DNA of 63,543 nucleotides from a virus, in IMG/VR virus record IMGVR_UViG_3300043331_000481, positions 1 through 63,543 of that record, one strand, 5' to 3'. The notes under the pieces are model-generated. The model was not told where the DNA came from, made no database searches, and saw only the letters and a list, made by a program, of their open reading frames with translations. A program made the translations under genes and the position numbers. Shown piece after piece: positions 17,104-35,502 of the stretch; the stretch's first letter is position 1; every line of letters begins with the position of its first letter.

Positions 17104-17300
17104 ACGCAGACCGCGACGCCCTACTCGCCGAGCTCCACCGTCGGCGCGCTGCCATCGACGCCGAGATCGCCGAGGTCTACGCGGGCGGCGCGAGCAAGCC
17201 GAAGCGCGTCCGGCGGGCCGTTGTTCCGACTTCGGAAGCGGCCGACCCGTCGACTGTTGACCGCGTGAGCCGGGCGCTGGTCAAGAGGGGGATCCGATGA
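17100..17300 (+). CDS. Small basic protein upstream of integrase
   Basis: This 66-residue protein starts MNADRDALLAELHRRRAAID and has a basic middle (KPKRVRRAV). Its stop overlaps the integrase start (ATGA). Excisionases are often small basic proteins beside int, so it is a candidate, but I see no winged-helix excisionase motif. Confidence 0.6.
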   Translation: MNADRDALLAELHRRRAAIDAEIAEVYAGGASKPKRVRRAVVPTSEAADPSTVDRVSRALVKRGIR

Positions 17301-18703
17301 AGAAGCGTCGCAAGAACTTCCAGGCCAGCATCGACAGCTACCAGACGACCGATGGCCCCCGGTGGCGCGTGCGCGCTCGCATCGACGGCAAGCTCAAGAC
17401 GCTCGAAAGTGGTCTGCTTTCCAACGCCGCCGCGGAAGAGTTCGCCCGCGGGTACACGACGCTCCGGGCCGGACGGGAGACCATCGGCGCGCTGACGCTC
17501 GCCCAGTTCGGGGACGGTTTCCTCGAGCGACGCGAGCAGCGGGGCGTGCGCGGCATCTCCCGGGAGCGCAACCGCTGGCGGCTCCACGTCGCCGGCAAGT
17601 CGATTGGCCAGCTGCCGCTCCGATCCATCGCCCGCTCCGACCTCATCGCCTGGCGGGACGAGCTCGTCCGCTGGGGGCTCAGCAAGGCCAGCCAGGAACT
17701 CTGCCTCGTGCTGGTGCGCCAGGCGCTCGCTGACGCCCTGGACCGCGACCTCGTGGCCTCCAACCCCGCAAAGGACGTCCACGGCGTCCGGGACCGCCAG
17801 GACGTCGCCAAGAGGGAGCTCGAAGGCATCCTGACGCCAGACCTGCAGCGCCGCTTCCTCGACAAGGCGCCGACGGAGCACGCTCGGCGGGTCGTCGGCC
17901 TTGCCCTCCTGACCGGCCTCCGGCTCTCCGAGCTCCGCGAGCTGAAGTGGGAGGACGTCAAGATCGGCGCCGACCAGAAGGGGAGCCCGGTCGGACTCAT
18001 CGAGGTCCGGTATTCCGAGGGCGGCAAGGCCCCCAAGAACGGCCGGGTCCGCCAGGTGGAGCTCCTGGAGCCCGCCATTGCCATCCTGCGCGCCATGCCC
18101 AGGGTCTCGGCCTGGGTCGTCACCGGGAGCCGCAAGGGGCGCCCGCAGGCCAAGAAGCCGCTCGTGGGCTGGAAGGTCTGGCGCGCGTGGCGGAAGGCCA
18201 GCGGCATCGAGATCCGCTGGCACGACCTGCGCCACACGTGCGCCACATCGCTCCTCGCCGGGTGGTGGGGCAAGCGGTGGACCCTGGAGGCGGTGTGCTC
18301 CCACCTGGGCCATTCGTCGATCCAGGTGACCGAGCGATACGCCCGGAAGGTGCGGGACATCACCCGCTCCGAAGCGCGGGGAATGTTCCAGCAAAGTTCC
18401 AGTGAAGAGGAGACGTCGATCGTGAATGCAGCTGTTTTTACGGGAGCCAACTACTGGATTCGAACCAGCGACCTGCGCGTTACGAAAGAGAGGCTCCTGC
18501 CTGCAAAAACGCGCACATCGGACCACAAACGTGTCAGCCATGACACTGATAGGCGAGAGCGACCCGGAAAGCGCTGGAAAGGCTCCCCCGGGGCCCACGC
18601 CCTTGCCTCCGCCGCCCACCGCCTGAGCCTCCTTTCCCCCGACCACGGCTGGCCTGCCTTCCAGGCCCGGATGGTCGCGGCGTTCGATGCGGAGGTGGCG
18701 TGA
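17297..18703 (+). CDS. int: Tyrosine recombinase integrase containing attP
   Basis: This 468-residue protein is a tyrosine integrase with the catalytic set Arg209 (TGLRLSELR), His309-x-x-Arg312 (HDLRH), His336 (HLGH) and Tyr348 (TERYAR). It has an N-terminal arm-binding-like part and a core-binding domain around residues 65-165. The catalytic domain ends near residue 365, but the frame runs about 100 codons further and crosses the attP core at 18443-18487 (codons 383-397). The stop is fused to the next start as TGATG. Integration would therefore exchange the C-terminal end of the protein, as reported for phage Mx8 int. It is coupled to genes on both sides. Confidence 0.95.
   Translation: MKKRRKNFQASIDSYQTTDGPRWRVRARIDGKLKTLESGLLSNAAAEEFARGYTTLRAGRETIGALTLAQFGDGFLERREQRGVRGISRERNRWRLHVAGKSIGQLPLRSIARSDLIAWRDELVRWGLSKASQELCLVLVRQALADALDRDLVASNPAKDVHGVRDRQDVAKRELEGILTPDLQRRFLDKAPTEHARRVVGLALLTGLRLSELRELKWEDVKIGADQKGSPVGLIEVRYSEGGKAPKNGRVRQVELLEPAIAILRAMPRVSAWVVTGSRKGRPQAKKPLVGWKVWRAWRKASGIEIRWHDLRHTCATSLLAGWWGKRWTLEAVCSHLGHSSIQVTERYARKVRDITRSEARGMFQQSSSEEETSIVNAAVFTGANYWIRTSDLRVTKERLLPAKTRTSDHKRVSHDTDRRERPGKRWKGSPGAHALASAAHRLSLLSPDHGWPAFQARMVAAFDAEVA
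18385..18406 (+). repeat. Tandem 11-bp direct repeat next to attP
   Basis: GTTCCAGCAAA and GTTCCAGTGAA lie head to tail, 37 bp from the attP core. They could be arm-type integrase sites, although they also encode part of the integrase. Confidence 0.4.
18443..18487 (-). other. attP: attP core: 3' half of a tRNA-Thr(CGU) gene
   Basis: On the minus strand, 18487-18443 reads as a tRNA from anticodon loop to acceptor: TTCGTAA (CGT anticodon), stem CGCGC, variable loop AGGTC, T stem GCTGG, T loop TTCGAAT, CCAGT, acceptor AGTTGGC and discriminator T. The 5' half of a tRNA is absent. This is the expected shape of a phage attachment site that targets a host tRNA-Thr gene and restores its 3' end on integration. 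It lies inside the integrase coding region. Confidence 0.88.
18531..18546. repeat. 16-bp inverted repeat beside attP
   Basis: GTGTCAGCCATGACAC is a perfect 6-bp inverted repeat with a 4-base centre, 44 bp from the core on the other side from the 11-bp direct repeats. It is a candidate binding site for integrase, excisionase or another regulator. Confidence 0.4.
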
Positions 18704-19815
18704 TGGCCCTCCTGGTGCAGGACATTCTGCGCTCCGGCATGACGCCCGCTGAGCTGTTGGAGCGGCATGCTGTCCACATCAAACCACACGCCGGGAAGGT
18801 GTCCCTGGTGTACGACCAGATCCTCGCCAAAGACGAAGACCCGGTAGCCCAGGAATGCCGCGGACTCGTCCTGCGTGAGGGCTCATGGGATATCGTCGCC
18901 TTCCCGTTCCGGCGGTTCTTCAACCATGGGCAGCCGGCGGCGGCTTCGCTCGATTGGGCCACTGCTGCGTTCCAGCAAAAGCTCGATGGTACCCTGATCA
19001 TCGCCTACTGGGACGGCGCCTGCGGCACTTGGCACGTCGCGACCCGGAGCATGAACGAGGCGCACGGGCCCGGACATTTTGGGAAGTCGTTCCGGGAGCT
19101 CGCCGACCAAGCCGCTCGCGACATGGGGCACGGATCGCTTCTGCGGCTCCTATCCAAGGCACCGAAGGACCACACGCTCATGTTCGAGCTGACAGCACCG
19201 GAGAACCGGGTTGTCTGCGACTATGCCGAGCGTCAACTCACACTCATTGGAGCGCGTTCTCTAGTCACGCTGGAGGAAGTTGCTCCGGTGCCACTGGCCA
19301 ACGAGTTGGGCGTGTTGAGTCCTCGGACGTGGAACTTCGAAAACCTTGACGCGCTGATCGATGAGATTCGGCACTGGGATCCGCGTGAGTACGAGGGGAT
19401 CGTGGTCTGCGATGCTCGATTCAACCGAATCAAGGTCAAGTCACCACAGTACCTCGTTGCCCACCATGCCGCCGATAGCCTCGGAGCGTCTTGGCGCTCT
19501 GTCGTCGAAGCCGTGGCGAGTGGCACGGTCGACGATATCCAGGACATGCTACCGCCATTCGTTCGCGGTCGCGTGGACGTTGCGCGGGAAAAGCTTGGAG
19601 CCCTGTGCTCACAAACCGAGCTGGACTGGATGGCCCTCCGCGGGATCTCCGACATCAAGGAGTTTGCCGAACACGCAAAGAAAAGACGCTGGCCTGCTGC
19701 CCTGTTCGCACTGAAACGCGAAAAGACGCCGTCACTTGCCGACTTCCTCAAAGCGACCCAGCCCAAATCGCTAGTCGAACTCGCTGGCCTGGAAAACGAG
19801 GAGGCATCCCCGTGA
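18703..19815 (+). CDS. T4 Rnl1-like RNA ligase
   Basis: This 370-residue protein carries the nucleotidyltransferase motifs of ATP-dependent RNA ligases: motif I KLDGTL with the AMP-accepting Lys93, the upstream CRGLVL block, motif IV EYEGIVV at 229-235, and motif V RIKVKS with Lys244 and Lys246. The C-terminal 120 residues are helical, as in the Rnl1 type. GGAGG lies 7 bases before ATG 18703. Rnl1 repairs tRNAs cut by host anticodon nucleases. No polynucleotide kinase/phosphatase partner is visible in the window, so end-healing may come from the host. Confidence 0.85.
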   Translation: MALLVQDILRSGMTPAELLERHAVHIKPHAGKVSLVYDQILAKDEDPVAQECRGLVLREGSWDIVAFPFRRFFNHGQPAAASLDWATAAFQQKLDGTLIIAYWDGACGTWHVATRSMNEAHGPGHFGKSFRELADQAARDMGHGSLLRLLSKAPKDHTLMFELTAPENRVVCDYAERQLTLIGARSLVTLEEVAPVPLANELGVLSPRTWNFENLDALIDEIRHWDPREYEGIVVCDARFNRIKVKSPQYLVAHHAADSLGASWRSVVEAVASGTVDDIQDMLPPFVRGRVDVAREKLGALCSQTELDWMALRGISDIKEFAEHAKKRRWPAALFALKREKTPSLADFLKATQPKSLVELAGLENEEASP

Positions 19816-20120
19816 CCCCCTGCCCCCGCTGCCTCGGCCACGACCTGCAGGAGCTGCTCACTCCGCCATTCGGCTCGTGGTGCCCGTGTGGGTTCACTGT
19901 GCCGGAGGTGGATAATCCGGAGACGTTCGAGGCGTACCTCGCTGCAGAGCGCTTCGCGAACAAGTCGCGCGCGCCGATCGTGCTGATGGTGGAGCAACTG
20001 CCGACGGACCAGCAACTGGCCATCGTCCACGCTGACCTCGACGCCTTGATCGCGTGCGGGCGCCTCGTGGTTGGCGAACTGATTGGCGACGAGTTTGAAG
20101 CGGAGGTGGCGCGTGGCTGA
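19812..20120 (+). CDS. Small zinc-motif protein
   Basis: This 102-residue protein starts at GTG 19812 (VTPCPRCLGHDL). CPRC at residues 4-7 and CPCG near 25-28 suggest a zinc ribbon. The C-terminal half is helical and acidic. No family is recognised. It overlaps the ligase stop. Confidence 0.65.
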   Translation: MTPCPRCLGHDLQELLTPPFGSWCPCGFTVPEVDNPETFEAYLAAERFANKSRAPIVLMVEQLPTDQQLAIVHADLDALIACGRLVVGELIGDEFEAEVARG

Positions 20121-20376
20121 ACTCATCTTCCGCAACGTCCGCAGCAAGCGTGGCTCGGTGTGGCTCCGTCATGCCGGCTGGGAGACGCGCTTTCAAACAG
20201 AGGAATGCCTCGGCCACTATTGGAGCGCGTCCGAGATTCACTGGCACTTCATGCGGGGAGTGTCGGTCCAGGAGCTGGCGCAGGCCAAGTGTGACTGTGG
20301 ACTGACGCTGACCGCCGAACAGGTCGAGACCGCGCTCCGGCATGAGTTCAAGCGGGAGGCGCACAATGCCCGCTGA
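20113..20376 (+). CDS. Small hypothetical protein
   Basis: This 87-residue protein starts at GTG 20113 (MAELIFRNVRSKRGSVWLRH). It has an aromatic, histidine-rich centre (GHYWSASEIHWHFMRG) and CDCG. It resembles a small nucleic-acid-binding protein only in composition. Confidence 0.6.
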   Translation: MAELIFRNVRSKRGSVWLRHAGWETRFQTEECLGHYWSASEIHWHFMRGVSVQELAQAKCDCGLTLTAEQVETALRHEFKREAHNAR

Positions 20377-20587
20377 CCTCCGCGTCCTCCCCGGCGGCGC
20401 CCCCACTCGCCCTCCCCAAGTCGGCGGCGAAAACCTGCGCACCACATGGATTCAAGACGGGCTCGTCTACGTCATGACCGAGAGCCCCGACGGCTACCGC
20501 GTCACCGACATCATGACGCCGGGCGAGGCCAGAGACTGGGCCGATGAACTGTTGGATTTGGCGCGGGAGGCGGAGGCAAAACGATGA
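20366..20587 (+). CDS. Small hypothetical protein
   Basis: This 73-residue protein starts MPADLRVLPGGAPTRPP, overlapping the previous gene by 11 bases. A beta-rich centre (LVYVMTESPDGYRVTDI) precedes an acidic helix. No function is recognised. Confidence 0.6.
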   Translation: MPADLRVLPGGAPTRPPQVGGENLRTTWIQDGLVYVMTESPDGYRVTDIMTPGEARDWADELLDLAREAEAKR

Positions 20588-21810
20588 GCAATATCGAGTG
20601 GACCGACGAAACTTGGAACCCGGTAAGAGGATGCTCCCGCGTCTCGCCCGGCTGCGACAACTGCTACGCGATGGGGCAGGCGCACCGGTTCTCCGGCGCC
20701 GGCAAGCCTTACGAAGGCTTGACCACCATCCGCCGCGGCAAAGTCGACTGGGCAGGCCGCACCAAGCTGATTCCGGAGATGCTCGACCAGCCCCTTCGCT
20801 GGAAGCGCCCGCGCCGTATCTTCGTCAACTCGATGAGCGACCTGTTCCACGAGTCGCTGACCAACGAGGAGATCGCGGCCGTCTTCGGCGTGATGGCAGC
20901 GGCGCCGCAGCACACGTTCCAGGTGCTCACCAAGCGGCCCAAGCGGATGGTCGAGTGGTTCGAGTGGGTCGAGTCCGAGGGCCCGTCACTGCACCCGCTC
21001 GGGGCCGCGCGCGGTGTGCGCTGGTACGCGTGGGCGATGTACGGCGCGCGCCTCGGGGCACAGTTCGAAGATCGCGTGAGTCCTGGGTGGTCCGGGCCGA
21101 TGCCAAGCTGGCCCTGGCCCCTCCCGAACGTCTGGCTCGGCGTCAGCACCGAGAACCAGGAGCAGGCCGACAAGCGCATTCCTCTGCTGCTCCAGGTGCC
21201 GGCGGCGGTGCGGTTCGTCAGCGCTGAGCCATTGCTCGGTCCGCTCGACCTCGAACCGTACCTGACGCAATCCAGCACGATGCACATGGCCCTCGATATC
21301 GAGGGTGTCCTCCGAAATCCGCGCAAGTGGCTGCAGGATGCATGTCGCGACGACGAAGGCCGCCTGCTGACTGTTGATGAAGCTGTCGCCGAGCTCAAGA
21401 AGCTCCGCGATGCGGGTGCCAAGCGAGTTCCACTCGGCACCGGGTGCGACCAATTCGACGACCAGACAGGATGCAAGGGACACCCTGAGCCGCGGCTCGA
21501 CTGGGTCATCGTCGGCGGGGAGAGCGGCCACGGTGCGCGTCCATGCGCGCTCGAGTGGATCGAAGGCATCCTGGACCAGTGCCGCGCCGCTGGTGTGGCC
21601 TGCTTCATAAAGCAGCTGGGCAGCAATGTTCACGACACCATCGTGGCCGACGAAGTGCGGGTGAATGGCGCCACCGTCCTCGGCGCTCGGAACAACCACG
21701 ACGGCACCTTCGAGCGGCGCCTAGGCTTCAGCCACAAGAAGGGCGGCGACCCGGCAGAGTGGCCCGAAGCGCTGCGCGTGCGGCAGTTCCCGGGGGGCCG
21801 ACTTGGCTAG
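20584..21810 (+). CDS. DUF5131 (phage Gp37/Gp68 family) protein
   Basis: This 408-residue protein begins MSNIEWTDETWNPVRGCSRV and has the family cysteine cluster CSRVSPGCDNCYAM (C-x6-C-x2-C) near residues 17-29. Other family blocks are RIFVNSMSDLFHE, TFQVLTKRP, NVWLGVSTENQ, VRFVSAEPLLGP, LDWVIVGGESG and FIKQLG. The cysteine cluster resembles that of radical-SAM enzymes, but the activity is unproven. About 75 extra residues between the PLDLEP and DWVIVGGESG blocks (around 230-305) look like an insertion. Confidence 0.88.
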   Translation: MSNIEWTDETWNPVRGCSRVSPGCDNCYAMGQAHRFSGAGKPYEGLTTIRRGKVDWAGRTKLIPEMLDQPLRWKRPRRIFVNSMSDLFHESLTNEEIAAVFGVMAAAPQHTFQVLTKRPKRMVEWFEWVESEGPSLHPLGAARGVRWYAWAMYGARLGAQFEDRVSPGWSGPMPSWPWPLPNVWLGVSTENQEQADKRIPLLLQVPAAVRFVSAEPLLGPLDLEPYLTQSSTMHMALDIEGVLRNPRKWLQDACRDDEGRLLTVDEAVAELKKLRDAGAKRVPLGTGCDQFDDQTGCKGHPEPRLDWVIVGGESGHGARPCALEWIEGILDQCRAAGVACFIKQLGSNVHDTIVADEVRVNGATVLGARNNHDGTFERRLGFSHKKGGDPAEWPEALRVRQFPGGRLG

Positions 21811-26151: not shown

Positions 26152-26691
26152 ATGGCGAAAGCCAAAGCGGCGGACGCGAAGCCCGGCAAGGGTGGGCGGA
26201 AGCCAAGGCCACAGGGCGGCGGGCGCGAGCCCGGTGTGCCCGACCATCCGCAGGAGACTCGGGACAAGTTCCGAGCGCACTACCTGCTGAGCGGTGTGGT
26301 TGCCCACTCGGCCAAGTTCGTCGGCGTGCCGGAGGGCACCTGCCACGATTGGGTCAAGGAACTGCTGGTCGACCCAGAGTTCGTCGAAGACCGCAGGGCC
26401 CAACGCGCGAAGTACCTTGAGGACATGGTCGCCATGAGGCACCGGGTGGCCATCGGCGCGCTTGAGCGCTTCGAGGCTGAGCTGGACGTCCCCGAGCAGA
26501 TCGGCGAAGGCGCCCAGGTCACCATCATCGACAAGCGGCCCGACTACGGGAAGCTCGTGCTGGACGCGGAGAAGAACGCGCACGCGCTGGCCAAGCTCGA
26601 GAAGCCCGAGGATCCGGACGCCATGCCAGGTGGCCGCGCCGAGGTGACCATCAACATCCGCGGCCCATCGACTGCGGCGGTCAGTGGGTAA
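26152..26691 (+). CDS. terS: Terminase small subunit
   Basis: This 179-residue protein directly precedes the large terminase and overlaps it by 8 bases. After a basic disordered N terminus, a helix-turn-helix-like region (FRAHYLLSGVVAHSAKFVGVPEGTCHDWVKEL, read in parts, residues 42-72) would bind the packaging site. A helical oligomerisation part (ALERFEAEL) and a beta-rich C terminus follow. The family assignment rests on architecture and position. Confidence 0.8.
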   Translation: MAKAKAADAKPGKGGRKPRPQGGGREPGVPDHPQETRDKFRAHYLLSGVVAHSAKFVGVPEGTCHDWVKELLVDPEFVEDRRAQRAKYLEDMVAMRHRVAIGALERFEAELDVPEQIGEGAQVTIIDKRPDYGKLVLDAEKNAHALAKLEKPEDPDAMPGGRAEVTINIRGPSTAAVSG

Positions 26692-28084
26692 GAAGATCGA
26701 GCTGGACTTCCAGCTCAACAGGCCGCAGTTCGACGCGTACCAGGTCTTCCGTCCTGGCGTCACCATCTTCACCGGGTGGGGCCGCGGCGTCGGCAAGAGC
26801 TGGTTTCATCGGTTCCTCTGGTGGAACCTGGTGGCTCAGTGGGACGGCGTTCTCAGGACGGAGGCGCTGAAGCCGTTCCGGGGTGTGCGCATCGCCATCC
26901 TGATGCCCACACTCAAGCAGTTCAAGGACGTCCACCTCGACGGCATCCAGAACGAGCTCGAGGGCGACTGGTCATTCCTCCGGGGCAAGGTCAACGCGCA
27001 GACCGGCTCGGTCCGATTCCCTGGTGGGAGCTGGATCAAGCCGATGCCGGCGCGGCTCTACACGTCCAAGACGGCACGCGGCTTGCGCTGTGACCTGGTC
27101 GACTCCGACGAGTGCGACGACATCGACGCCGAAGCGCATGATGGCGTTGCGGTTCCGTGGCTGTCCGAGCCCTGGTCGCTGAACATGGAGGCGATGGGCG
27201 GCACGCCAACGCGCGGCCGTCACGGTCTCTGGTGGCGCATGCTCGAGGACGGGCGCAAGGGCGCCAGGCTCCGAGCCGGTGAAGATCCCGAAGTGGTCGG
27301 CGTCGACGAAGAGAACGTCGAGGCCATCAAGTCGATCTTCGCGTTCCACGCGACCTACCGGGACGCGCCCGAGACGGTCAGCCCCAAAGCCGTCGCCAAG
27401 GCCAAGGCCACGACGCCGAAGGCCACCTTCGAGCGCGAGTGGGAGGCCAATCCCGACGCGGGTGAAGGCCTCATCTACCAGGAGTTCGACCCTGACTTCC
27501 ACGTCAGGAAGGCGCCGGACTGGTCGACCTTCAACGAGTTCTTGGTCGGCGCCGACTTCGGTGACGTCGACCCAGCTGTCCTTCTGCTCATCGGCATCCA
27601 AGGCCACGGCAACGACGCAACGGCCTGGTGCCTGGACGAATGGTATGAGCCCGGCACGCTGAACAGCGTCTGGGACGAACGCGCCAAGGTCTGGCGCAAC
27701 GCGACATTCTACCCGGACCCGAGCCGGCAAGACCGCGTCCGCGACTGGCGCTCGTTCAATCTTCGCGTCGAGGACATCCCGCCCGACGTCAAGCCCATCG
27801 CCGCCGGCATCGGGCGCGTCGCCGACATGCTCTTCCGGCGCAAGCAGGAATACGAGCGAGGGGGTGAGCTGCGTGTCCACGAGTGGGCGCACCTCTACTT
27901 CGACCCGAAGTGCAAGAACGTCATCCGCGAGATGGGGCTCTACCGGCGCAGAAAGATGCCGGACGGGAGCTTCTCTGAGGATCCGGTCGACAAGGACAAT
28001 CACGCGCTCGACGCGCTCAGGTACGCCCTCGCCAGCAGGTTTGGCCGAGCCCCCAACTCCCGCCACGTGACCTCCGGCCGATGA
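26684..28084 (+). CDS. terL: Terminase large subunit
   Basis: This 466-residue protein starts at GTG 26684. Its ATPase half has Walker A GWGRGVGKS at residues 31-39 and a Walker-B-like LVDSDECDDID near 140. Its nuclease half begins near residue 285 with VGADFGDVDP, the RNase H-like first acidic strand, and ends with an NHALDALRYAL block typical of terminases. It pumps DNA into the procapsid and cuts the concatemer. It is tightly coupled to terS and portal. Confidence 0.93.
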   Translation: MGKKIELDFQLNRPQFDAYQVFRPGVTIFTGWGRGVGKSWFHRFLWWNLVAQWDGVLRTEALKPFRGVRIAILMPTLKQFKDVHLDGIQNELEGDWSFLRGKVNAQTGSVRFPGGSWIKPMPARLYTSKTARGLRCDLVDSDECDDIDAEAHDGVAVPWLSEPWSLNMEAMGGTPTRGRHGLWWRMLEDGRKGARLRAGEDPEVVGVDEENVEAIKSIFAFHATYRDAPETVSPKAVAKAKATTPKATFEREWEANPDAGEGLIYQEFDPDFHVRKAPDWSTFNEFLVGADFGDVDPAVLLLIGIQGHGNDATAWCLDEWYEPGTLNSVWDERAKVWRNATFYPDPSRQDRVRDWRSFNLRVEDIPPDVKPIAAGIGRVADMLFRRKQEYERGGELRVHEWAHLYFDPKCKNVIREMGLYRRRKMPDGSFSEDPVDKDNHALDALRYALASRFGRAPNSRHVTSGR

Positions 28085-29820
28085 CCAACCCGAACAAAAA
28101 GCTCACTGGGCTGGAGCAGGCCAACAAGGCCGCGCTGGCCAACATGAGCCCGCGCTACCATCGGCTCGATGAGCTCGAGAAGTGGGTCGACGGCACGCAG
28201 TACAAGGGGCGGCCGGACTGGTTCACGGGCGGGCCAGCAGAGGTCCCACTTTGGGAGCGCGAGCCGTGCGTGGTCTACCCGATCGTCTCGGTGGCCATCA
28301 GCTCGAACGCTGACCTTTGCCTCGGTGAAGGGAAGTTCCCGACCTTCCAGGTCACGCACTCGGGCCAAGGTTCGGCTGGCACGGACGGCGAAGAAAAAAC
28401 CGACCCGCTGGAAGTCTGCCTCCGGCACATTCACCGGCTCTCGCGCTTCCCGACGGTCGTCAAAGACGCCTACAAGGATGGCCAAGGGTGCGGGACGGCT
28501 GTCTCGATTCTCGGGGTGCGAAACGGCATTCCGTTCCAGGACCTCGTGCCTGCCAAGTGGTGCACGCGCGAGGTCGACGCTTCGGGCCAGGTGACCAGCC
28601 TCGCCATCGAGTACCCCTACCTCGACGAGGTGAAGCAGCGGGACGGGACGTGGCAGGTCCGTGCGATGCTCTACCGGCGCGTCATCGATGCCCAGAGCGA
28701 CACGACCTACCTGCCGGCCATCGCCAACGAGAACGGCATTGCCCCATCGTGGCAGGCTGACTCAAGCAAGACCATCGAGCACGGCCTCGGGTTCTGCCCG
28801 GTCGTTTGGTACCCCTTCATGAAGGGCTGCCAAGCGGTCAACGTCATCGACGGCAAGGCCATCCACGCCAAGCTCACCGACGAGATCCAGGCGCACGACA
28901 TCGCCAGGAGCCAGTGGCATCGCGGGGCGCTCTACTCGGAACCGCAGATCTACGAGATCGGGGTCGACGGCGACCACAACCCGACGGGCCAGGGGCGCGT
29001 GGCCATGGTGCCGGCGACCGAGCATGGTGGGCCCGCGACGCCCGACAACCCCATCGTCAGCCAGTACCAAGAGGGTCCGGGACAGAGCGCCCGCAAGAAG
29101 GGCCCGAACCACGTCTGGCGCTACCCGAGCAAGGACACCAAGGTCGGCGCCATCGAGTACGCGGCCGGCGCGCTGAAGTCTCAGCAGGACAACTGCTCGG
29201 ACTTGCGGGTCAAGATCCAGGAAGCCCTCGCGGTCGTCCTGCTCGACCCCGAGAATATCAAGATGGCGTCGATGACCTCGGGCAAGGCGCTCGAAGCCCT
29301 GCGCCAGAAGCAGCTCGACCGCATCGACGAGCACCGGGACGATCTCCGGGACGGCTTCATCGTGCCGAGCATCATCATGCAGCTCCGGCTGCTGAAGAAG
29401 CTGGGCACGCAGATGAAGGTGCCCGGCGTGGAAGAGGCGGTCGCTGCGCTTGGTCCTGCCCAGGAGTTCTCGGCGCCGGACGTCCAGGTCACCTGGGGCA
29501 GCTACTTCAAGGCCGACCCGGCCGAGCAGCTGCAGCTCATTCAGATGGTCAAAGAGGCCCTGAAAGACCTGCCGCTCATCACCAAGAAGCTGGCGGTCGA
29601 GAAGATCGCTCCCATCTTCGGCATCAAGGACATCGACGCCCTGATGCATGAACTCGAAAAGGAAGCCACGGAGCGCGAGGCCAAGCTGGCCACCGAGCTT
29701 CGGCTGATGCGCGATGAGCCTGGCGGAGCAGTTTCGAGCAATCCTGCAGCAGCATCAGCGGGTGGCAATCGTCGGGGGCCCAAGGATGGGCAAGTCGACG
29801 CTGTCCAGGACGGCGACTGA
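28081..29820 (+). CDS. Portal protein
   Basis: This 579-residue protein immediately follows terL and has the usual portal size. Recognisable features are PLWEREPCVVYPIVSVAISS near the N terminus, a long alpha/beta core, and a helical stem and crown region from about 370 (KSQQDNCSDLRVKI, MTSGKALEALRQKQ). It forms the twelve-fold ring through which DNA enters. The 3' end overlaps the P-loop gene by 107 bases. Confidence 0.88.
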   Translation: MTNPNKKLTGLEQANKAALANMSPRYHRLDELEKWVDGTQYKGRPDWFTGGPAEVPLWEREPCVVYPIVSVAISSNADLCLGEGKFPTFQVTHSGQGSAGTDGEEKTDPLEVCLRHIHRLSRFPTVVKDAYKDGQGCGTAVSILGVRNGIPFQDLVPAKWCTREVDASGQVTSLAIEYPYLDEVKQRDGTWQVRAMLYRRVIDAQSDTTYLPAIANENGIAPSWQADSSKTIEHGLGFCPVVWYPFMKGCQAVNVIDGKAIHAKLTDEIQAHDIARSQWHRGALYSEPQIYEIGVDGDHNPTGQGRVAMVPATEHGGPATPDNPIVSQYQEGPGQSARKKGPNHVWRYPSKDTKVGAIEYAAGALKSQQDNCSDLRVKIQEALAVVLLDPENIKMASMTSGKALEALRQKQLDRIDEHRDDLRDGFIVPSIIMQLRLLKKLGTQMKVPGVEEAVAALGPAQEFSAPDVQVTWGSYFKADPAEQLQLIQMVKEALKDLPLITKKLAVEKIAPIFGIKDIDALMHELEKEATEREAKLATELRLMRDEPGGAVSSNPAAASAGGNRRGPKDGQVDAVQDGD

Positions 29821-30157
29821 TCGAATCATCATCGGCAGCGACGCCTACCGCGAGCTCGACTGGGGCGACATCCCGGCAGCGATGATTCGCGACGCCGGCA
29901 AGTACGACAGCTTCGTAATCGAAGGCGTCCAGGTGGCGCGAGCTCTGCGTGGTCCGCGCGACGGGAGCGTCCGCAAGCTCGGCCTGGACGTGGACGCCAT
30001 CATCTACCTTCGGCAGCCCAAGGTCCCGCTCGCGGAGATGCTCCCGGGTCAGCTCGCCATGGCGAAGGCGGTCAGGACCATCTTCGACGACTGGCACCGA
30101 ACACTCGCGCGTCCACCAGCGATCTACGAAGAGCCCCAGGTCATCCCAGGAACATGA
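29714..30157 (+). CDS. P-loop NTPase overlapping the portal gene
   Basis: This 147-residue protein has a clear Walker A, IVGGPRMGKST at about residues 19-29, and resembles small nucleoside or nucleotide kinases (IIIGSDAYRELDW, FVIEGVQVARAL, AIIYLRQPKVPL). The first 107 bases are read in a second frame inside the portal gene. A kinase-like NTPase in the head module is unusual; it could phosphorylate a nucleotide or protein, or be a degenerate DNA-packaging factor. The substrate cannot be told from sequence. Confidence 0.75.
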   Translation: MSLAEQFRAILQQHQRVAIVGGPRMGKSTLSRTATDRIIIGSDAYRELDWGDIPAAMIRDAGKYDSFVIEGVQVARALRGPRDGSVRKLGLDVDAIIYLRQPKVPLAEMLPGQLAMAKAVRTIFDDWHRTLARPPAIYEEPQVIPGT

Positions 30158-30501: not shown

Positions 30502-30870
30502 ATGGCAGTCGTAGCAGCCACCATCAAGGAAGTTCACCTCGTCGACGGCAACCAGAACCAGCTGAATCCAGCCCGCAAGGGCTACCGCTTGGTGCTCAGC
30601 CTCGGAACGCAGACTGCGGGTGACACATTCGCGGTCGTGACGGCCAACAGCAAGATGGCAGAAAAGATCAGGTCCGGAAAGACCATCACGCTGCGCGAAG
30701 CGTCGGGTAGCGTGGGCGGTTTCACCCCGGGCGGCACGTCGGCCTACGCCTTCGGCGTCACGGTCTCCGGCACCACGCTGTCGGGATCCATCGGCAGCTC
30801 CACCGGAGTGGCCGCCGCCGTGGCTTCCGGCACCACGGCTTCCGTCTACGTGACGGTGGACGAGTCCTGA
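30502..30870 (+). CDS. Probable head decoration-type protein
   Basis: This 122-residue protein starts MAVVAATIKEVHLVDGNQNQ and is rich in Gly, Ser, Thr and Val (VSGTTLSGSIGSSTGVAAAV). This is a beta-sandwich-like composition typical of virion surface or decoration proteins. AAGGAA precedes the ATG. The assignment is from composition and position. Confidence 0.65.
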   Translation: MAVVAATIKEVHLVDGNQNQLNPARKGYRLVLSLGTQTAGDTFAVVTANSKMAEKIRSGKTITLREASGSVGGFTPGGTSAYAFGVTVSGTTLSGSIGSSTGVAAAVASGTTASVYVTVDES

Positions 30871-31328
30871 TGCACCAGTCCGACTTCGCCGCCCCGAATC
30901 ACGTGGTCAAGGATGGCTTCGTGTCGATGGGGGCGGCCGAAAAGGTGCGCCAGGATGCGCTGATGGCGGAGTTCAAACTGCGCCACCGTGCCGAGTACGA
31001 CCGCGCCGTCCAGGCAGTGGTGGCACAGCGCCGCGCCAATGCGGAGCACGAGGCTGCGCAAAAGGAGATCGTCAAGCTCTGCCCCCAGGGCAAGGTGAGC
31101 GACCTGCTCGTCGGCATCAAGGCCGAAGCGGCGGAGGAGCTCCGGCGCCAGGAGCTGCTACCCAAGCAAGCTCCTGCCCCGCTGCCACCGGTCCTGGAGC
31201 TGTCCCCCACGATGCCAGCTCCCAGCGCAAAGGCAGCGCCAGAACTCGGGCCAATGAAGATTGCCGGGCAGCCTGTCGAGGCGCCGGAAGTCGTCCGCGG
31301 CAAGCGCGGCAAGGCAGCTGCGCAGTAA
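30870..31328 (+). CDS. Hypothetical helical protein
   Basis: This 152-residue protein starts MHQSDFAAPNHVVKDGFVSM. The first 100 residues are helical and charged, followed by a proline-rich tail (PAPLPPVLELSPTMPAPS). Its ATG overlaps the upstream stop. No family is recognised; a head accessory role is possible. Confidence 0.65.
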   Translation: MHQSDFAAPNHVVKDGFVSMGAAEKVRQDALMAEFKLRHRAEYDRAVQAVVAQRRANAEHEAAQKEIVKLCPQGKVSDLLVGIKAEAAEELRRQELLPKQAPAPLPPVLELSPTMPAPSAKAAPELGPMKIAGQPVEAPEVVRGKRGKAAAQ

Positions 31329-31331
31329 CCG

Positions 31332-33356
31332 ATGGGTCGTCTGGAGAGAAAGCCGCGCGTCGTCCTGACGATGATCGTCCGGAACGAGGCGAAGGTGATC
31401 CGCCGGTGCCTCGAGTCGGTGCTCCCGTACATCGACGCGTGGGCCATCTCCGACACGGGCTCGACCGACGGCACCCAGGACATCATCCGCGAGATCATGG
31501 GCGACCTGCCCGGGGTTCTCATCGAGCGTCCCTGGGTCGACTTCTCGACGAATCGGAACGAAGCCATCGAGGCTGGCTTGGCCTTCGAGCCCGACTGGTT
31601 CATGACGCTGGACGCCGACGAGGTGTTCACGCCAGGGCCCGGGTTCGAGCTCGAGCTCTCCTGCGACATCCACAATGTGATGTTCCGTATGGCTGGCACT
31701 GACGCCCGCTGGCCGCGCCGAGCGTTCTTCCGCCCGCACCTCCGATACCGCTTCGTCCTGGACGAGGTCATCGAGGACGGCGAGACGCAGGACACGCTCT
31801 CCGCCTGCGAGGTGGTGAGCCACACGGACGGTGCACGCTCCGCCGAAGGGCTCATCGCGAAGTACAACCGCGACGTCGAGGTCCTCCAGCGCGCAGTCGA
31901 GCGCGAGCCCGACGAGCCGCGCTACTGGTTCTACTTGGCCCAGCGCCTCATGGGTGCTCGCAGGTGGGGCGAGGCTCTGGCTGCCTACGAGAGGCGGCTC
32001 GAGCTCCAAGGCTTCGACGAGGAGCGCTTCCAGTCCGCGTTCATGATTGGCCAGATCCGCGAGGAGATGGGCGATCCGGATCTGGACAGCATCGCCCGCC
32101 AGTACCAGGTGGCCTGGCAGATGCGCCCCGAGCGCGCCGAGCCACTCTTTGCGCTGGCCTGCCTGCACTCCCAAGCCGGCGAGCACGCTCTGGCCGAAGT
32201 CTACGCCCGCGCGGCGCAAAGGCTCCCGCGGCCACCGAGCGGCCTGCCGGTGGACGACTCGGTCTACGCCTGGCGGGCAGTGGACCTCCTGGCCGGCTCC
32301 CTCTCTGAGCAGGGCAAGACTGCCGAGGCGCTCCAACTCCTCGAAAAGCTCGAGCCACTACCCCAACTTCCCGACTCGGAGCGCGAGCGGGTCCGCGAGA
32401 ACATCGCAAGCCTTCGGGCTGCGCTTGGCCCGACGCCAGAGTTCCTGGGCGCCGACGAGGCAGCCTACCAAGACCAGGCCGCGCGCGTCCGCGACAAGGG
32501 CGCCGGCGGCTTTCGCGCTCTGGCTCGCGACTACCTGTCCAACCCCGGCCGCCAAGCACTCCCCGGGCCCGTGCGCTGGCTCTGGATCCTCATGCTCCGC
32601 TGGTTCGGCCGGCACGTGACCGAAGTCGCCGCGCTGGCCTGCATCCCGGCTCTCTGGTGGGCGACGCTCCCATTCGGCGGTCACGCTCTCGTGGCGGCCA
32701 TGAGCCCGCTGCTCTTGCTCCTGAGCGGCCGAGTCCTGCAAGACACGACCGTCGCCGCGCTGACTCTGACGGCCATCGGAGCTGCGGCCGCCGGCAATCC
32801 CTGGGCGCTCGCTCTGGCCGTTCTCGCGCTCGGGGCCACCAAGGAGGCCTCCGTCCTGACTGCTCCGGCCGTCGCGTTCGCGTGGTGGTGCTCCGGTGCT
32901 TCGTGGGCCTGGTTTGCAGGCGCGGCCGCTGCCGGCGCTGGCCTTGCTGCACTGGGCGGGCTCGCTCTCCTTCGCGGCGCCTGGTGGCCAGCCCTGAAAG
33001 CTGGCGCCAAGGGCCACATCACCCCCTACACGCAGGCTCAACAGCAAGGCGCCCCGCATCGGCTCCTGGTGGACCTGGTTCTGGTCTCGCCCGTGGCGAC
33101 GCTGATGGGGCTCTTTGGCGATTGGCGCTTGGTTGTTCTGGTCGGGCTTTTGCTCGGCGCCCATGCGCTCGCTCCGGTGCGGAACGTTCGGCTCGTGCTC
33201 GCGGCAGACCTCCTGCTCCGCGCCTCGGCGGTTTCTGCGTTCGGCTGGTGGGCTCTGCTCACCGTGCCCGCCGACGTCTTCATCTACCGACGCCTTCGCG
33301 GCGTCTACGACCCAGTGACGAGCGTTCTCGCTCGTGAGCTGGGCATGTCTCGATAG
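31332..33356 (+). CDS. Glycosyltransferase fusion: GT2 + TPR + polytopic membrane domain
   Basis: This 674-residue protein has three parts. Residues 1-170 form a family-2 glycosyltransferase (VVLTMIVRNEAKVIRRCLES, SDTGSTDGTQD at 40-50, LDADEVF with the metal-binding DxD at 94-96). Residues about 175-390 are TPR-like helical repeats (YWFYLAQRLMGA, GEALAAYERRLEL). Residues about 410-655 hold roughly eight membrane segments and a TKEASVLTAPA motif near 506-516 that resembles GT-C transferases. It would act at the inner membrane on a lipid-linked sugar. It lies in the head gene cluster, where such a protein is unexpected, and may modify surface polysaccharide after infection. Confidence 0.85.
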   Translation: MGRLERKPRVVLTMIVRNEAKVIRRCLESVLPYIDAWAISDTGSTDGTQDIIREIMGDLPGVLIERPWVDFSTNRNEAIEAGLAFEPDWFMTLDADEVFTPGPGFELELSCDIHNVMFRMAGTDARWPRRAFFRPHLRYRFVLDEVIEDGETQDTLSACEVVSHTDGARSAEGLIAKYNRDVEVLQRAVEREPDEPRYWFYLAQRLMGARRWGEALAAYERRLELQGFDEERFQSAFMIGQIREEMGDPDLDSIARQYQVAWQMRPERAEPLFALACLHSQAGEHALAEVYARAAQRLPRPPSGLPVDDSVYAWRAVDLLAGSLSEQGKTAEALQLLEKLEPLPQLPDSERERVRENIASLRAALGPTPEFLGADEAAYQDQAARVRDKGAGGFRALARDYLSNPGRQALPGPVRWLWILMLRWFGRHVTEVAALACIPALWWATLPFGGHALVAAMSPLLLLLSGRVLQDTTVAALTLTAIGAAAAGNPWALALAVLALGATKEASVLTAPAVAFAWWCSGASWAWFAGAAAAGAGLAALGGLALLRGAWWPALKAGAKGHITPYTQAQQQGAPHRLLVDLVLVSPVATLMGLFGDWRLVVLVGLLLGAHALAPVRNVRLVLAADLLLRASAVSAFGWWALLTVPADVFIYRRLRGVYDPVTSVLARELGMSR

Positions 33357-33362
33357 TACCAA

Positions 33363-33647
33363 ATGGCCATCAAACCCGTCGGCGACACCGTCGCAGTCCG
33401 ATTCGTCGAGCTGAGCAGCGAAGAGCTGCAGAAGGCACGCGATAGCTGGAATCAGCCCGGGCCGCGCCCAGTCGACGAGGATCCGATTCTTGCAGTCATC
33501 TACGGTTTGGGGACCGAGGTGACGCGCAAGGGCTTCAAGAAGGGCGACACCGTCCTCTTGCGCCCGTACGCAGTCAACGGCTCAGAGCTAAGCGAGGGCA
33601 TTTATGCCGTCGACCCCTGGTCCGTGATGGCTGTTGTGACCGAGTAG
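33363..33647 (+). CDS. GroES-like co-chaperonin
   Basis: This 94-residue protein resembles GroES in size and layout. MAIKPVGDTVAVRFVE matches the first strands, ILAVIYGLG resembles the 'GEVLAVG' turn, KKGDTVLLRPYAVNG resembles 'KVGDIVIF..YG', and the end YAVDPWSVMAVV matches the final strand. The region 20-40 could be the mobile loop that contacts GroEL. It sits just before scaffold and major capsid genes, as expected for a capsid-folding helper analogous to T4 gp31. The match is by eye. Confidence 0.6.
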   Translation: MAIKPVGDTVAVRFVELSSEELQKARDSWNQPGPRPVDEDPILAVIYGLGTEVTRKGFKKGDTVLLRPYAVNGSELSEGIYAVDPWSVMAVVTE

Positions 33648-33703: not shown

Positions 33704-34369
33704 ATGACGACCGAAGCATCGGGCGGCGCACCTGCGCCTGTCCAACCAGCACCTGTGCCTGCACCAGCGGCAACGCCTCCGGCGGCCGCCACTCCGGCGC
33801 CTCCTGCCAAGGACCCGGACGAACAAGCCGCATGGCTGAAGGGCAGGCTGGAACAAGCCCGCACGGCTGCCAACAAGGCCCTTCTGGCGGAACTCGGCGT
33901 CGACGACGCCGCCAAGGCCAAGGCCTTCATCGAGGCCGGGCTCGCTGCCGAGAACGAGAAAAAGTCGCTGGCCGAGAAGCTTGCTGAGCAGGCAACGGCG
34001 CTCACGACCACCAAGGCACAGGCCGAGAAGTACTCCGGAATCATCGCCCAGCAGGCATCGGCGCAAATGAGCGCCTTGTCGGCAGAACAGCAGGCCGCCG
34101 TCAAAGCCATCGCTGGCGAAGATCCAGCGGAGCAACTGCGCGCCGTCATCGCGCTCGCTCCGACTTGGAAGGCGGCCCCGGTCACCGAGACGCCAGGACA
34201 GAAGCCAGCAGCGTCTCCTCCTGCGTCCACCGCAGCCACAGTCGGCGGACCACCGCCGGCAGGTTCGACGTCACCGCCAGACCACAAGGCGGAATTCGAA
34301 AAACTCCAACAGACCAACCCTGTTGCTGCGGCCCGATACGCCCGCGCGCATCGGGTCTTCCAGAGCTGA
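33704..34369 (+). CDS. Capsid scaffolding protein
   Basis: This 221-residue protein has the typical scaffold make-up. Proline/alanine-rich disordered ends (APAPVQPAPVPAPAATPPA) flank a charged coiled-coil centre (residues about 40-140; EQARTAANKALLAEL, EKLAEQATALTTTKAQAEK). It lies immediately before the major capsid gene. No protease domain is present, so scaffold release may not need cleavage. Confidence 0.85.
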   Translation: MTTEASGGAPAPVQPAPVPAPAATPPAAATPAPPAKDPDEQAAWLKGRLEQARTAANKALLAELGVDDAAKAKAFIEAGLAAENEKKSLAEKLAEQATALTTTKAQAEKYSGIIAQQASAQMSALSAEQQAAVKAIAGEDPAEQLRAVIALAPTWKAAPVTETPGQKPAASPPASTAATVGGPPPAGSTSPPDHKAEFEKLQQTNPVAAARYARAHRVFQS

Positions 34370-34425: not shown

Positions 34426-35502
34426 ATGCCCTTCTCGCAAGCCGAAAACCCCACCAATTTCTACACCGCCACCAGCACGCAGCTCCTCGACGCGCCCGAG
34501 CCGCAGTTCCTCTACGCCGACCTGTTCATCCGGGCCATCGGCGCAAGCCTGCCGGTCCCAGCAGATCTCGGTGTTGCTCCGGCTGGCACCGGTGCTCCCT
34601 ACGGCAGCGCGGAGGATGGCCGACTGATTCTGGCCGACCCGATCAGCACGTCGCTCTTCTCGGTGAACGTGGACTTCACGGGTCAGCCGGGGAGCAGCAT
34701 CCGCGTGAACCGCCCGGCATACGTCGACACGACCTACACGGCGTCGAGCCGTATCGTGCCGAGCGGCGCGACCATCACCACGACCCCGGCGCCGAGCCCC
34801 GGCGGGCAGCAAGCGAACCTGACGCTCGAGCGGTACGCGGGGCCCTACGACACGGTGAATAGCCGCGTTGCGCCGTACCTCATCGACAACTTCGACAACC
34901 AGCTCGGCATCCACAGCGGCGACAGCATCCACAGCCGCCACCTGGTCCGGGACTTCCACAAGACCCTCGACAGCTTCATGGTCACGCTGCTGGACCTCGG
35001 CAGCACCGCCGTCTACCCGGTCGGCGTCTCGACGGTCGACCAGATGAACACGCTGGGCGACTACCCGTTCAGCTTGGAGCAGCTGACCCGCACCGAGCGG
35101 CTCATGGACGAGGCCCACCTGCCTGTCCTTCCCGATGGGCGCCGGATCCTCGTGCTCACGGCGCGCCAGGTTGCCGACCTCGGACTCGACTCGAACTACA
35201 TGAAGCTGTCCGAGGCGCACCCGCAGTTCAATCGGCTGTTCCCGCAGTACGTGAAGGCCGTTGCCGGCTTCCACATCTTCAAATCGACCACGCTGAGCCA
35301 GACGGCCAACAGTTCCTCGGTTGCCGTCCAGTACGGCCACGCCATCGCTCCAGGCTGCCTCATGGGCGGCATGGGCAGGGCGCCGCGCATCGCTCCGAGC
35401 GATCTCACCAACCACGGCGAGTCGAAGATGGTGGTGTGGATCGCCTACCTGGCGCTCGCGCTCGCCAACAACGCCTTCGTCCTCTCGGTGCGCTCCGCCT
35501 GA
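34426..35502 (+). CDS. Major capsid protein
   Basis: This 358-residue protein follows the scaffold gene. Its C-terminal part (LPDGRRILVLTARQVADLGLDS, FHIFKSTTLSQ, SKMVVWIAYLALALANNAFVLS) fits HK97-fold capsid proteins of the type without a delta domain. There is no obvious protease cleavage site. An unusual 11-bp hairpin follows the gene at 35509-35538. Confidence 0.88.
   Translation: MPFSQAENPTNFYTATSTQLLDAPEPQFLYADLFIRAIGASLPVPADLGVAPAGTGAPYGSAEDGRLILADPISTSLFSVNVDFTGQPGSSIRVNRPAYVDTTYTASSRIVPSGATITTTPAPSPGGQQANLTLERYAGPYDTVNSRVAPYLIDNFDNQLGIHSGDSIHSRHLVRDFHKTLDSFMVTLLDLGSTAVYPVGVSTVDQMNTLGDYPFSLEQLTRTERLMDEAHLPVLPDGRRILVLTARQVADLGLDSNYMKLSEAHPQFNRLFPQYVKAVAGFHIFKSTTLSQTANSSSVAVQYGHAIAPGCLMGGMGRAPRIAPSDLTNHGESKMVVWIAYLALALANNAFVLSVRSA

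Follow-up and report, generated by a model that had tools for sequence, protein, structure and literature searches.

The window analysed here, the whole 63,543-base stretch of an IMG/VR virus record, encodes on its plus strand (31332..33356) a 674-residue protein in which a soluble GT2-TPR part leads straight into the catalytic loop of a GT-C-like membrane domain. This domain lacks the first GT-C helix (TM1), a feature that is new relative to known GT-C enzymes. We propose, with a probability of roughly 45%, that the protein is a phage protein-glycosylation enzyme that has both active sites in the cytoplasm and acts on a virion protein in two steps. The frame has an ATG start and no internal stop codon. 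It lies 3 nt from the stop codon of the preceding gene and 6 nt from the next gene.

The GT2 (GT-A fold) domain (residues about 8-170, 31353..31841) was matched by PF00535 at residues 14-102 (E 5.7e-11) and contains a DAD (DxD) motif at residues 94-96 of the translation (31611..31619). D94 and D96 are invariant in the alignment of relatives (A1). The TPR region (residues about 171-365, 31842..32426) was matched by several TPR models at 1e-3 to 1e-4, each under its curated cut-off, and is backed by helix pairs in the AF2 model and by SunS and TPR matches in Foldseek. The PHROGs profile phrog_13126, which has 394 positions and no membrane part, matches the N part over its full length (residues 9-364, profile 2-357, E 9.7e-30). 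When the full-length AF2 model, which was only fair (pTM 0.43), was compared using Foldseek, the SunS and ThuS glycosyltransferases ranked first (E 1.6e-11), and the closest solved structures by sequence include GmaR and SunS/ThuS. The score against the SunS family itself (TIGR04195) was 42.6 bits, far from the cut-off of 350 bits. The N part is described as SunS/ThuS-like in predicted fold and GmaR-like in sequence. Enzymes resembling SunS and GmaR glycosylate peptides or flagellin, and GT2-TPR enzymes of this type are cytoplasmic and have protein substrates. In FlmG, flagellin is bound via the TPR part (PMC7591256).

Because the full-length model was only fair, the C part (residues 371-674, 32442..33353) was folded alone. 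The AF2 model built from 11 sequences has a pLDDT of 81.8 and a pTM of 0.85, and we count about nine membrane helices in its helix list, besides the juxtamembrane helices. The best 15 Foldseek matches in the PDB are all GT-C proteins, with ArnT (5ezm) in first place (prob 1.00, TMq 0.52) and EmbB, ALG9, ALG3, ALG12, PMT, PIG-U and OST among the others. However, the E values never fell below 0.001 (best 0.09), and the TM-scores are moderate. By sequence, residues 371-674 have no match in Pfam (PMT_2 or any other model above its curated cut-off), PHROGs or the PDB. A PDB profile search with alignment A6 gave no match, and tblastn of the C part against phages and plasmids gave nothing at E 1. Profile comparison with nine ArnT/GT39 proteins gave a probability of 25% (E 7.6e-4) and placed the phage Asp-Glu pair on the Asp-Glu pair of ArnT/GT39, and D471 on the EL2 Asp of GT39/83, whereas hhalign with E. 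coli ArnT alone aligned weakly. On the model and these alignments, we consider the GT-C fold nearly certain. An earlier sequence-only reading had correctly described the 674-residue frame, the GT2 domain with its DxD motif, the TPR-like repeats, the GT-C-like membrane part with its TKEA motif (residues 503-506) and the position within the head module. Its count of about eight membrane segments compares with about nine in the model, and it overlooked the absence of TM1.

The motifs follow the GT-C order: catalytic Asp at the JM1 tip, Arg and Asp in EL2, Lys-Glu in EL3, and Arg in EL5 (PMC12041299, PMC7801869). The presumed catalytic D375-E376 pair (32454..32459) was located at the tip of JM1 by alignment, hhalign and the model, at the start of the first model helix (4-19), and is invariant in 11 of 11 members; the catalytic Asp of GT-C enzymes sits at this same tip (PMC12041299). 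The EL2 equivalent (32730..32744) reads RVLQD here and RRRLQD in most relatives, and R467 and D471 are invariant. The TKEA motif (32838..32849; K504 and E505) occupies the EL3 position of the canonical LxKG/KET (PMC7801869), and its Lys is conserved in 10 members and replaced by Arg in L021. The EL4 equivalent loop (32970..33062) carries the conserved pattern GHxTxYT...Q.G..HR in alignment A6. In the EL5 equivalent APVRNVR (33171..33191), A-P-V, N and R are invariant; an Arg preceding TM10 is a phosphate ligand in GT-C enzymes (PMC7801869). D375, E376, Y379, R467, D471 and the EL4 residues do not vary among the members, whose identity to the domain in the window is otherwise 38-54%. The membrane domain is probably catalytically active, although the canonical KPP motif has lost its Lys in the phage (PSPxRW).

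In canonical GT-C enzymes, TM1 comes before the catalytic loop (PMC12041299, PMC11127046), and the catalytic domain, usually after TM1, is extracytoplasmic and uses lipid-linked donors (PMC11127046). In the fusion, about 10 residues separate the end of the TPR region from D375-E376. The stop-to-stop frames of stand-alone C genes open only a short way ahead of the profile start (7 codons in L110, 18 in L091); these versions begin just a few residues ahead of the Asp-Glu pair, and TM1 therefore cannot be encoded there. Because the GT-C part lacks TM1, both active sites of the fusion are predicted to lie on the same, cytoplasmic side. The loop charges are swapped as well. The average numbers of Lys and Arg in the nine ArnT/GT39 proteins are 2.6 (TM2-3), 2.6 (TM4-5), 3.4 (TM6-7) and 0.1 (EL2), whereas those in the 11 phage members are about 0.1, 0-0.8, 0 and 2.6, respectively. 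EL1 and EL4 appear by inspection to be positive in both sets and do not discriminate. In addition, no signal sequence is recognisable in the GT2-TPR part, which, as we infer, needs nucleotide sugars; this argues for a cytoplasmic catalytic face. Combined with the missing TM1, the charge swap, read by the positive-inside rule, makes this orientation likely. However, the uncharged phage loops are also very short, and the three to four positive residues of the C-tail would be on the predicted outside if TM10 is a single span. A search of the open-licence literature with narrow wording found no GT-C protein with inverted topology or a cytoplasmic active site. That these proteins represent a GT-C class that has lost TM1, works from the cytoplasm on inner-leaflet polyprenyl-phosphate sugars and shares a chain with a protein glycosyltransferase is a tentative suggestion, to which we give somewhat less than even odds; such a class would offer a membrane-based way of glycosylating viral proteins within the cell. 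Among the BFVD models of viral proteins, A0A6J5M3A1 (284 aa), A0A8S5S3I0 (810 aa) and A0A514K2W1 (326 aa) resemble the membrane domain (prob 0.93-1.00), and the short A0A6J5M3A1 and A0A514K2W1 hint that a TM1-less class may be wider.

The fusion recurs in eight further distinct IMG/VR phages (L010, L012, L015, L017, L019, L084, L085 and L090), with about 57% identity overall, and its carriers are a group of environmental phages. In all eight it occupies the identical site between the portal-side genes and the scaffold/head protein, and in every relative examined the gene lies inside the head operon. Two relatives have the halves as separate genes: in L021, a methyltransferase gene stands between them, and in L091 the two neighbouring genes overlap by 4 nt, with a homologue of that methyltransferase encoded 2.3 kb downstream. 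These class I methyltransferases (L021:9101-9703, Methyltransf_24; L091:3824-4420) are related. Across the 46 loci compared, which are those sharing the head protein, the two halves are either both present or both absent. The fused versions cluster together in a quick tree of the head protein (SH-aLRT 99), and a group of 11 around them (SH-aLRT 98) adds both split versions and L109, which has no glycosyltransferase; this is most simply read as one gain and one loss. Purifying selection acts on both halves (pN/pS 0.28-0.46 for the N part and 0.23-0.53 for the C part), and because of this and its presence in nine phages, the fusion is not a chance product. No relative was returned when viral and cellular genomes were scanned with single sequences, or cellular genomes with the C part, and a viral scan with the split versions in the lead gave no further lineage.

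The neighbouring genes confirm the head-operon setting. Downstream, on the plus strand, lie a head scaffolding protein (33704..34369; phrog_2303, E 0.0055, conserved place) and the presumed major head protein (34426..35502), which has no Pfam or PHROG match and is assigned from its conservation across the 46 loci and its position after the scaffold. No promoter was recognisable between the head-operon genes in a consensus scan. The gene directly upstream encodes a small helical protein (30870..31328, plus strand) with homologues ahead of the fusion in other phages; it was dropped as a fusion-specific partner, a look-alike (judged by eye) being present in L109. The preceding 122-aa protein (30502..30870, plus strand) is also found in relatives without the glycosyltransferase. 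A small P-loop kinase-like protein (29714-30157; weak Pfam matches) overlaps the end of the portal gene and is conserved in many relatives, and the 94-aa protein right after the fusion (33363-33647) resembles a GroES-type co-chaperonin when judged by eye, with no Pfam match at E 0.1. Farther upstream, a tyrosine integrase (17297-18703), a T4-type RNA ligase and a DUF5131 protein are encoded consecutively at 17297-21810. The genome is mosaic: its terminase (26684-28084) is 89% identical to that of L013, a phage without the glycosyltransferase, whereas identity to L013 drops to 41% for the head protein, which groups with those of the fusion-bearing phages. In three other viral contigs, L053, L064 and L024, collagen-like repeat proteins are followed by several consecutive glycosyltransferase/TPR genes.

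In the proposed mechanism, the TPR region would hold the acceptor, for which a head or tail protein of the same operon is the leading candidate, and the GT2 domain would attach a sugar taken from a nucleotide sugar. The GT-C domain, whose catalytic loop would face the cytoplasm through loss of the first helix, may then use a polyprenyl-phosphate sugar whose lipid has yet to be flipped as donor of a second sugar, and place this on the same protein or glycan. The type of the GT2-TPR part, the parallel with the TMTC proteins (described below), the head-operon position and the methyltransferases in the relatives lead us to favour two-step cytoplasmic glycosylation of a virion protein. A similar picture is given by the cluster O mycobacteriophages, in which three glycosyltransferase genes stand beside an O-methyltransferase gene and the enzymes are said to modify the capsid and tail tube (PMC11600133, citing Freeman et al. 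2023). However, capsid proteins do not have to come into contact with the membrane, and we put the chance that the acceptor is a virion protein at about even.

The sequence-only reading had offered host-surface modification, a block to re-adsorption and virion-protein glycosylation as roles; the last fits best, and conversion of the host surface is disfavoured. GT-C folds usually act on lipid-linked or surface glycans, and the phage has a tyrosine integrase, so that a GT-C domain acting on a host glycan and fed by the GT2 domain during infection or lysogeny (seroconversion or re-adsorption block) could be imagined. This is improbable given a GT2 domain that is not GtrB-like, the lack of a GtrA or other Gtr-family match among the scanned genes, which include only part of the small ORFs, an active site predicted to face inward, and a gene that is 12.6 kb from the integrase. 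The same reading had suggested that one polypeptide could combine sugar loading and transfer. Such a single-chain Gtr pathway, in which the GT2 domain charges undecaprenyl phosphate and the GT-C domain transfers the sugar, both in the cytoplasm and without a flippase, would account for the fusion, the absent flippase and the absent TM1 by same-side activities. However, the GT2 domain groups with enzymes in which a SunS/GmaR-like domain is followed by TPRs, rather than with polyprenyl-phosphate synthases that carry membrane helices at the C-terminus, and we hold this pathway to be slightly less probable still.

A greater, though still low, probability attaches to the idea that only the GT2-TPR part is a working protein glycosyltransferase, the membrane domain being a GT-C relic that serves as an anchor or binds lipid-linked sugars. 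PIG-U provides a precedent for a GT-C fold with lost activity (PMC7801869), and both the loss of TM1 and of the KPP Lys and the undetectable sequence relation to active GT-C families are compatible with it. The invariance of the catalytic and loop residues listed above, including most of APVRNVR, the stand-alone copies retained in L021 and L091, and the purifying selection speak against a relic. Finally, the hydrophobic JM2 segment (PxRWLWILMLRWFG; about 11-13 residues), located within the catalytic loop that TM1 would normally precede, might be a true membrane span that restores ordinary topology downstream. We regard this as very improbable: the segment is too short and forms a 10-residue helix in the model that matches the KPPL..W...LFG segment of GT39/83, and a span here would separate the Asp-Glu pair from the EL2 Asp and EL3 Lys and reverse the charge pattern.

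A conserved, natural TM1-less GT-C domain fused to a soluble glycosyltransferase makes cytoplasmic GT-C function directly testable. If two-step virion-protein glycosylation is correct, the protein would be a one-chain tool for such modification and offer a new view of how phage particles are decorated.

The phage Gtr systems (gtrA, gtrB and gtr), whose genes lie next to the attachment site or integrase, likewise combine a GT2 and a GT-C-like enzyme from one phage. In contrast, the fusion is a single chain away from the integrase with active sites predicted on the same side, its GT2 domain is not of the membrane type, and no GtrA flippase was found among the proteins scanned. GtrB has two C-terminal membrane helices; in the fusion, GT2 precedes the TPR and GT-C domains, and there is no such helix pair. 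Cluster O mycobacteriophages resemble the split relatives L021 and L091 in having glycosyltransferase genes with a methyltransferase gene, but the glycosyltransferase genes are several and separate, and no fused GT-C domain is mentioned in the text consulted. ArnT (GT83) and GT39/PMT share with the phage domain the overall fold, the Asp-Glu pair at the JM1 tip, the EL2 Asp, the EL3 Lys and the EL5 Arg, whereas the phage domain has no TM1, a replaced KPP Lys, a predicted cytoplasmic active site, a fused soluble GT2-TPR part and no Pfam-level sequence match. TMTC1-4, ER proteins with GT-C and TPR parts described as O-mannosyltransferases, also have a GT-C core with a KE motif and the TPR on the active-site side, but they retain TM1, lack GT2 and carry the TPR C-terminally on the lumenal face (PMC7801869), whereas the TPR of the fusion is N-terminal. 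SunS/ThuS and GmaR have the same order of a GT2 catalytic domain followed by a helical or TPR region, from which the phage protein differs by its added membrane GT-C part.
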